64,000 nt of DNA from NCBI GenBank assembly GCA_903851035.1, contig CAINND010000078.1:20627-84626 (forward strand), read 5' to 3'. This DNA comes from an uncultured Acidobacteriota bacterium (GTDB lineage Bacteria > Acidobacteriota > Terriglobia > Terriglobales > Acidobacteriaceae). The position numbers and the translations under genes are program-made. Below, piece by piece: positions 20,128 to 23,973 of the stretch (position 1 is the first letter of the stretch; every line of letters begins with the position of its first letter). The notes under the pieces are model-generated. The model saw only the letters and a program-made list of their open reading frames with translations, ran no database searches and was not told where the DNA came from.

Positions 20128-20607
20128 TTAATTCAGCTCATCCAGCAGGGCGCGCAACTGGCGACGCAGCCGCTGCAGCTCCTCGCGATGCGCGTTGCCG
20201 CGCGGCGGAGGCGTGGTTAAAAACGGCAGCATGGGTTGTGCCGTGGCCGCAACCTTGGCGTTTACGATCTCGCGGATCTGGCCCGTGGCCGCAACCTTGG
20301 ATGGCGCCGCCACCTGGTGCAGGCGGGCTTCCTCGCGGAGCTTCTCCCGGGCGCCGGCAATGGTGAATCCCTCTTCGTAGAGCAGGCGGCGGATGCGAAA
20401 GACATTCTCCACATCCTTGCGGCGATACATGCGCTGCCCGGTGCTGCTCTTGGTGGGCTTCAGCAGGCTGAACTCCGTCTCCCAATAGCGCAGCACATAG
20501 GCCGGCAGCGCGCTCAGCTCGCTGACTTCGCCGATGCGAAAGTAAATCTTGTCCGGAATGACTACTTCCGGCTGCGCTTTTCCGTGTTTGCGTTTTGCCA
20601 GTGACAT
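20128..20607 (-). CDS. MerR-family transcriptional regulator
   Basis: [26 protein letters not shown]...[32 protein letters not shown]. Confidence 0.92.
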
Positions 20608-20669: not shown

Positions 20670-20702
20670 CAAGAAAAAGTCTCCGCGGTCCGCGCGGAGA
20701 CT
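20670..20702 (-). terminator. Rho-independent terminator ending the candidate ncRNA
   Basis: Perfect 10-bp stem AGTCTCCGCG/CGCGGAGACT with 5-nt loop; minus-strand T-tract TTTTTCTT follows. Confidence 0.85.
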
Positions 20703-20846
20703 GAACAAGCAAATCCGGGGTCTAGCCACCCCGAAGATACGGTACTGCTGTGCAGCGCCGCCGCATTGGATTGGAACCTTCTCCCTTGAAGGTGCAGAGT
20801 GTTCTGCCAATCCTGTCTACATCTTGAATACAATCCAATGCTAGTC
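20670..20846 (-). ncRNA. Candidate structured small RNA (~175 nt), family unknown
   Basis: Minus strand: 11-bp perfect stem GCATTGGATTG (20831-20841) with CAATCCAATGC (20763-20773) enclosing hairpins GCAGA/TCTGC (20794-20807) and ACCTTC/GAAGGT (20776-20793); 3' hairpins CTGC/GCAG (20745-20755) and CGGGGT/ACCCCG (20716-20733); ends in a terminator. No coding frame fits. Confidence 0.68.
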
Positions 20847-20850
20847 CCAT

Positions 20851-20879
20851 ATTTTGTGGCCGGTTGTCGCCTTTGTCAA
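20851..20879 (-). promoter_or_regulatory. Candidate sigma70 promoter for the ncRNA
   Basis: Minus strand TTGACA (20874-20879), exact 17-bp spacer, CAAAAT (20851-20856), about 6 nt before the structured RNA. Confidence 0.65.
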
Positions 20880-21164: not shown

Positions 21165-22220
21165 ATGCGGAAGATGGCGGCAGTGGTAAAGGCAGGGCCC
21201 AGGGCCGGAGTGGAGTTGCACGAGGTTCCTGTCCCGGAGATTGGTCCCGGTGAAGTGCTGGTGAAGGTGAAGGTGGCCAGCATCTGCGGCACCGACCTGC
21301 ACATTTACAACTGGGATCCCTGGGCGCAAGGACGAATTGTGCCGCCGTTGATTCCCGGCCACGAGTTCTGCGGCCACGTGGCGGCCGTCGGCCCGGAGGT
21401 CACCAGCGTCAAAGAGGGCGACTTCGTCAGTGCCGAGATGCATGTGGCCTGCGGCAAGTGTTTGCAATGCCGCACCGGCCAGGGACACATCTGCCAGAGC
21501 GTGAAGATCATCGGCATTGACCGCGACGGCGCCTTCGCCGACTACGTCGTCATACCGGAGACCAACATCTGGAAGCTCGACGACTCCATTCCGCACGAAT
21601 ATGCCAGCATACTCGACCCGCTGGGCAACGCCGTGCACACCGCCCTCAGTGGCGACCTTGCGGCAAAGAACGTGGCCATCACCGGTTGCGGGCCCATCGG
21701 ACTGTTCGCCATCGCCGTGGCACGCGCCTGCGGTGCCGCGCAGGTCTTCGCCATTGAGGTGAACGAGTATCGCCGCAACATCGCCCGCCAGATGAAGGCC
21801 GATTTCGTTCTCGACCCTGCCACCGAGGACGTGCGCAAGATCGTCCACGAGCGCACCGGCGGCTACGGCGTGGACGTGCTGCTGGAGATGGCAGGCCACA
21901 AGGACGCCATCAAGCTGGGCTTTGACATTCTGCGCACCGGCGGCAGGGTGAGCCTGCTGGGCATTCCTCCGCGCCCCATTGAGATTGACCTGGCGCACGA
22001 CATCATCTTCAAGGGCGCCACCGTGCTGGGCATCAACGGCCGCAAGATGTTTGAGACCTGGTACCAGATGACTGCCCTGCTAAAGGCGCACAAGCTGGAA
22101 CTGCATCCGGTCATCACCAATCGCCTGCCGCTCACCGACTTCAGCAAGGGAATGGATTTGCTGAACAGCGGCAAGGCCAGCAAAATTCTGCTCTTCACCG
22201 ACTGCAACGAAGCTGTATAG
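21165..22220 (+). CDS. tdh: L-threonine 3-dehydrogenase
   Basis: Zn-MDR: SICGTDLHIYNWDPWAQ, GHEFCGHV, CGKCLQCRTGQGHIC, ITGCGPIGL; adjacent to kbl. Confidence 0.95.
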   Translation: MRKMAAVVKAGPRAGVELHEVPVPEIGPGEVLVKVKVASICGTDLHIYNWDPWAQGRIVPPLIPGHEFCGHVAAVGPEVTSVKEGDFVSAEMHVACGKCLQCRTGQGHICQSVKIIGIDRDGAFADYVVIPETNIWKLDDSIPHEYASILDPLGNAVHTALSGDLAAKNVAITGCGPIGLFAIAVARACGAAQVFAIEVNEYRRNIARQMKADFVLDPATEDVRKIVHERTGGYGVDVLLEMAGHKDAIKLGFDILRTGGRVSLLGIPPRPIEIDLAHDIIFKGATVLGINGRKMFETWYQMTALLKAHKLELHPVITNRLPLTDFSKGMDLLNSGKASKILLFTDCNEAV

Positions 22221-23511: not shown

Positions 23512-23973
23512 ATGGGCAGCACACCGAATCCGGATGCCTTGGAGTTTTACACGTACAGGTATTTCGCAAATGGCCGGACATTCTATGTGGGAAAGGGGCA
23601 CTGGGTTACCGGACAGAAGACTCAGCGAGTCAATGATCGTGGCATATTCTCCTCCCGACTCAGACGGAATCGTCTCGAACGAGACATAGAGCACCGGGAT
23701 CTCAAGAAGAAAGATATCCAGGTCCTCAATCTCCTTCACTTCAAACACCGGGTGGAGGTTCGATGGGAGTTCCTTGGTAAGAGAGATATCAACGAGGCTG
23801 ACGCTCTCGCGCAAGAAGCAGAGTTCATTAGGAAATACCTAAGCGAGGGATGCTGTCTCGCGAATGATGACATGAATCCCGCAAGGCACACTGTTGATCA
23901 AGTTGTCGAGTGGGTGTTGGCCGGAGACCCAACTCCAAGCCACCGTGGAGAGAAACTGGAGTTCAAGGACTAG
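23512..23973 (+). CDS. GIY-YIG-like domain protein
   Basis: N-terminal FYTYRYFANGRTFYVGKG resembles GIY-YIG nuclease motif; conserved-looking Glu/Arg positions downstream. By eye. Confidence 0.65.
   Translation: MGSTPNPDALEFYTYRYFANGRTFYVGKGHWVTGQKTQRVNDRGIFSSRLRRNRLERDIEHRDLKKKDIQVLNLLHFKHRVEVRWEFLGKRDINEADALAQEAEFIRKYLSEGCCLANDDMNPARHTVDQVVEWVLAGDPTPSHRGEKLEFKD

Follow-up and report, generated by a model that had tools for sequence, protein, structure and literature searches.

What is the RNA encoded between a divergent dehydrogenase gene and a MerR-family gene in this 64,000-nucleotide stretch of DNA (the window), if no protein is read from it? A sequence-only reading had described a structured candidate small RNA and offered three options: a trans-acting sRNA, a lineage-specific structured RNA, or a terminating leader of the MerR gene. 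By sequence inspection, folding and scanning, a transcription unit of about 170 nt with promoter, fold and terminator was delimited on the minus strand at 20844-20675, with a presumed 5' end near 20844. Its parts, its neighbours and two sites predicted to pair with a second small RNA, sRNA2, are listed here.

20128..20607, minus strand: downstream MerR-family gene, a conserved neighbour outside the RNA
20674..20702, minus strand: intrinsic terminator, 10-bp stem (20702-20678) plus T-run, recovered by terminator scan; sequence kept in the genus
20675..20844, minus strand: ORF-less RNA of about 170 nt, supported by fold, conservation and homologues
20716..20733, minus strand: P3 hairpin CGGGGT-GGCTAG-ACCCCG
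20719..20727, minus strand: predicted sRNA2 pairing site 2, GGCTAGACC, complementary to the sRNA2 hairpin loop
20763..20773, minus strand: P1' helix, 3' strand CAATCCAATGC
20771..20791, minus strand: predicted sRNA2 pairing site 1, CTTCAAGGGAGAAGGTTCCAA, 13 + 6 bp (-32.8 kcal/mol, z -7.0, 0/500 shuffles)
20776..20793, minus strand: P2 hairpin ACCTTC-AAGGGA-GAAGGT, a family-conserved element
20831..20841, minus strand: P1' helix, 5' strand GCATTGGATTG, pairing with 20773-20763; genus-specific, with a compensatory change in other species
20851..20879, minus strand: sigma-70-type promoter TTGACA-17-CAAAAT (TTGACA 20879-20874, 17-bp spacer, CAAAAT 20856-20851)
21165..22220, plus strand: divergent zinc-dependent (threonine-type) dehydrogenase gene, a neighbour common to the orthologous loci of g22 and g31

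Elsewhere in the window, an ORF on the plus strand at 23512-23973 starts with FYTYRYFANGRTFYVGKG and, judged by reading, resembles a GIY-YIG nuclease domain.

The promoter had been read correctly: it was the sole sigma-70-like site in the scanned region, where 0.3 sites were expected by chance, and it was kept across the genus and the family. The RNA was indeed highly structured, with a minimum free energy (MFE) of -77.3 kcal/mol against -61.1 +/- 4.3 for shuffles (z -3.76), and 1 of 200 dinucleotide shuffles folded as well. The MFE structure included the GCAGA/TCTGC, ACCTTC/GAAGGT and CGGGGT/ACCCCG helices, together with the 11-bp helix (P1') and the 10-bp terminator stem that had both been proposed from the letters. 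The MerR start codon (ATG 20607) lay about 70 nt past that stem, close to the ~60 nt given before. When the RNA was searched with Rfam 15 cmscan at the gathering threshold and at E<=10, no family was found, and a lone chance miRNA match fell outside it. No covariance model matched, including those of Acido-1, Acido-Lenti-1, 6S and riboswitches; this excluded Acido-1, which had been raised as a possibility, and agreed with the earlier view that the shape is not that of 6S and holds no known riboswitch core.

Conservation was analyzed in four genomes of the genus, the window genome (G000) and G001-G003. The RNA was found in all three other genomes, again with the divergent dehydrogenase gene on one side and the MerR gene on the other, and 49-78 nt separated terminator and MerR. 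Among the four, identity was 74-80% in the RNA, compared with 33-53% in the intergenic flanks, taken without the promoter, and 43-61% at the neighbours' fourfold-degenerate sites. The consensus structure of the four sequences (P1', P2, P3 and terminator) had z -4.4, which 0 of 300 column shuffles equalled, and compensatory changes were seen in P1' (U-A to C-G) and P3 (G-C to A-U). All hairpins named earlier exist in the window RNA; the ACCTTC and CGGGGT hairpins were conserved across the genus like P1' and the terminator, but the small GCAGA and CTGC hairpins were not, the CTGC region being deleted in G001. The higher identity of the RNA than of flanks and fourfold sites, the consensus fold and the compensatory changes together indicate that the RNA is maintained by selection. 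In the window's genus, purifying selection acts on the promoter, on the hairpins of the leader and the 3' part, and on the terminator. Short frames in the genus RNAs were not conserved among the four genomes, as expected from the earlier statement that no meaningful ORF fits.

The exact P2 sequence, CCTTCAAGGGAGAAGG, was also present in other genera, where promoter type and leader agree with those of the window RNA. There, the P2 leader was followed by a Shine-Dalgarno sequence, a tiny lysine-rich ORF (e.g. MPVKKKAAKKAAKKKAKK) and a terminator, an arrangement that we call the type-1 mRNA. A covariance model (R1) made of promoter and leader only, with the ORF left out, was searched against 300 family genomes and gave one match each in 68, of which 64 lay outside the genus (26 genera) and 4 inside. 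All 64 matches outside the genus carried a Shine-Dalgarno sequence and, after it, a lysine-rich ORF 12-27 codons long, the L100 ORF entering an assembly gap. Inside the genus, this combination was found in 0/4 genomes, and a pattern search for a retained or relocated type-1 ORF was negative in 4/4 genomes and positive in 5/5 controls. The window RNA shares with type-1 mRNAs the homologous promoter, leader hairpin and terminator, and lacks the Shine-Dalgarno sequence and the lysine-rich ORF. In G024, an ORF-bearing unit sits between the same two neighbours as the window RNA; the loci are therefore orthologous, some with and some without the ORF, and parsimony favours its loss in the window's lineage. 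Homology and ORF loss showed the window RNA to be a former mRNA, the ORF-less orthologue of a predicted lysine-rich microprotein mRNA found family-wide.

Leaders of the ORF-bearing units have a 5' hairpin that, set by hand, covaried (64% of cells paired versus 38-48% in slid controls); RNAalifold, run automatically on the alignment of family leaders, returned zero pairs. The genus replaced this hairpin by P1', whose 3' strand lies at the position of the relatives' Shine-Dalgarno sequence and start codon. Named homologues fell in metagenome-assembled Acidobacteriota of the class Terriglobia, and named matches outside the Acidobacteriota, like most one-mismatch pattern matches in the family, were taken as chance. 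Rfam gave no match for the homologues either, and the description as a lineage-specific structured RNA held. At locus L064, a tRNA-Pro(GGG) gene (L064:2631-2707) was found just past the MerR gene downstream of the microprotein gene, and the genes around MerR may form a conserved cluster of old standing.

The partner sRNA2 was detected by searching the four genus genomes for the P2-loop 12-mer TTCAAGGGAGAA. Besides the RNA itself, one locus was conserved in 4/4 genomes; in G000 and G002 the 12-mer was present solely in the window RNA and, antisense, in this locus. On its reverse strand, the locus reads as a small RNA about 83 nt long that has a promoter (TTGACA..TAGTAT) and a terminator of its own.

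G000:C114:39902-40033, minus strand: sRNA2 in the window genome (L206), on a different contig from the window; further loci are L203-L232

Homologues of sRNA2 were found in 68 family genomes (E 2e-79 to 1.4e-8), near a tRNA-Thr(CGT) gene in the loci whose examined stretch reaches that gene. The RNA is C-rich, with a nearly invariant core GGAACUAUUCUCCCUUGAA, and it had no Rfam match; this family-wide sRNA deserves a family entry of its own. Two stretches of sRNA2 are exposed, the linker CUCCCUUGAA and, inside GGUCUAGCC, a hairpin loop; they are the complements of the two loops that the window RNA exposes.

Pairing was calculated with energy models that treat the RNAs alone. At site 1, the predicted duplex reached -32.8 kcal/mol in G000, -30.4 in G001, -32.8 in G002 and -28.9 in G003, with z -5.6 to -7.3 in the four genomes, and 0/500 dinucleotide shuffles reached these energies. 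The homologous site of ORF-bearing orthologues gave -26 to -30 kcal/mol in g22, g31, g33 and g55 and -24 in g80; the type-1 duplex predicted for more distant genera, among them g7, g76 and g29, was weak, with z -2.3 to 0. At site 2, GGCUAGACC and GGUCUAGCC form 9 Watson-Crick pairs in 4/4 genus genomes, a match reached in 7/1000 shuffles of the RNA with site 1 excluded, and G024 has a partial version. Cofolding placed both sites in pairs simultaneously in all four. Both RNAs are strongly self-folded, and the whole-molecule cofold gain was clearly above shuffles in G002 only (-19.2 vs -6.7 +/- 3.1). In the other genomes it was either moderate (G001, G003) or small (G000, -8.3 vs -4.6 +/- 2.6). 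Duplex formation between the window RNA and sRNA2 is strongly predicted by these models. A pseudoknot within the window RNA, in which the 5' end would pair with the P3 loop (CUAGC/GCUAG), was rejected in favour of P3-sRNA2 pairing; both of its sides are invariant, so it offers no covariation.

A wider covariance model, R2, also recovered a second lysine-rich microprotein gene (type 2) with a different leader and the ribosome-binding site (RBS) AAGGGAGAAUAG; the window genome holds one, G000:C103 (MATKKAAKKAAKKPAKKAAKKK). The invariant 12-mer of sRNA2 complements the type-2 RBS in 8/8 genomes tested, as its sole perfect complement in seven of them and with one extra match in G002, and the duplex amounts to -20 to -27 kcal/mol. 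Site 1 of the window RNA shares sequence with this RBS. Its complementarity gives sRNA2 the look of a translational repressor dedicated to the lysine-rich microproteins. The microproteins resemble HC2/histone H1-like proteins (PF07382) in being rich in lysine and alanine, but they are only 12-27 aa long, and Pfam and NCBIfam held no family for them (best Pfam match E 0.023, below the cut-off). Type-2 genes with their own structured leader were seen at L163 (G000:C103:3226-3405), L164-L169 and L177-L182, and related genes extend to other families of the class (L170-L176, L153-L162). Longer lysine/alanine-rich ORFs of 34-48 aa (L199, at about 34301 of G000:C85, minus strand; L200; L201) share the ribosome-binding site GGGAGAAU and differ in the upstream region.

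The window RNA has the marks of an sRNA sponge: conserved complementarity to an sRNA at two sites in 4/4 genomes, and resemblance to a target of that sRNA, site 1 being a leader element of ORF-bearing orthologues that are themselves predicted targets. Since no ORF is left to regulate, it is most likely a target mimic or sponge, and a lost ORF combined with a kept sRNA2 site and a second site perfected in the genus fits this. The type-1 microprotein mRNA would have lost its ORF and Shine-Dalgarno sequence in the window's genus, keeping its promoter, the hairpins of leader and 3' part, and its terminator. sRNA2 would cover the ribosome-binding regions of lysine-rich microprotein genes and repress them; the window RNA would bind sRNA2 at two sites and titrate it, and the G000:C103 gene would be relieved. 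We infer this sponge action, as well as the direction and outcome of regulation in the circuit, and regard it as somewhat probable that the ORF-less former mRNA survives as a target mimic of sRNA2 relieving the remaining microprotein gene. Among the three options offered before, a trans-acting role is now the best supported. The microprotein-mRNA ancestry and the complementarity to sRNA2 had been missed because relatives were needed to see them.

Pairing could also have another consequence, with sRNA2 processing or degrading the window RNA, or with the RNA addressing other targets through its AAGGGA and GGCUAG loops. Complementarity is equally compatible with sRNA2 acting on the window RNA, and Hfq is encoded; we nevertheless consider this unlikely, as the two sites match both exposed regions of sRNA2 and the loop 12-mer has no further antisense copy in G000 or G002. 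Still less probable is a role as leader or attenuator for the MerR gene, the option that has lost ground to a trans-acting RNA. MerR lies downstream in 22/30 loci examined, and in the genus the terminator is close to it, but in relatives the homologous unit is a microprotein mRNA complete with terminator, G002 and G003 (2/4 genomes) have promoter-like sites after the terminator and before MerR, and several genera differ in neighbour or distance. For a functionless, decaying remnant of the lost gene speak the loss of the ORF in this genus and the existence of a second copy of the microprotein gene; conservation far above that of flanks and fourfold sites, the compensatory changes and the perfected second site leave this reading very little probability.

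Comparably little is left for a divergent, very short peptide still encoded by the RNA, such as the 14-codon frame MRRRCTAVPYLRGG from 20766. This frame is present in G000 and, starting at GTG, in G002; it is missing from G003 and G001, does not keep the relatives' Shine-Dalgarno sequence upstream, and is not lysine-rich. The least probable reading is a protein-binding RNA, for example a CsrA sponge, in which the A(N)GGA-like AAGGGA hairpin loop would correspond to the ANGGA motif. A CsrB/RsmX-type sponge requires CsrA and multiple GGA loops, and we found one conserved GGA-type loop and no csrA in the window genome or 36 other family genomes searched, an absence that excludes CsrA binding.

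The target-mimic reading has parallels in published bacterial sRNA sponges, which are both free-standing and mRNA-derived (PMC8383071); the reviewed examples include SroC/GcvB, chbBC spacer/ChiX, AgvB, 3'ETS-leuZ, RbsZ and ChiZ (PMC8383071). Like them, the window RNA has sites complementary to a conserved sRNA; the known sponges relieve the targets of their sRNA, some with their own promoter and some derived from mRNAs. The reviewed ones come from UTRs, spacers, tRNA precursors or phage genes (PMC8383071), whereas this putative sponge is a whole mRNA orthologue minus its ORF. Acido-1 and Acido-Lenti-1 (RF01686, RF01687; PMC2864571) are likewise candidate noncoding RNAs of Acidobacteria, from which the window RNA differs in having no cmscan match at gathering or E<=10. 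The predicted antisense RNA over the RBS of a tiny ORF recalls the sRNA-repressed small-protein genes of type I toxin-antitoxin style; the peptide linked to sRNA2 is, however, lysine-rich rather than hydrophobic, and sRNA2 itself comes from a locus far away and would control two genes. Literature searches on acidobacterial sRNAs or lysine-rich microproteins returned nothing relevant, and they turned up almost no sRNA work for the phylum.

We give an even chance to the wider proposal that an mRNA became a dedicated regulatory RNA through loss of its ORF, kept and extended its pairing with sRNA2, and buffers control of the paralogous microprotein, in a two-microprotein, one-sRNA circuit of Acidobacteriota. 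Two items are new to Rfam, Pfam and NCBIfam as searched: the family-wide C-rich sRNA and its two apparent targets, the genes for lysine-rich microproteins. If the proposal is true, it would provide a traceable origin of a bacterial regulatory RNA, because the ORF is present in some and absent from other orthologous loci that share their neighbours.
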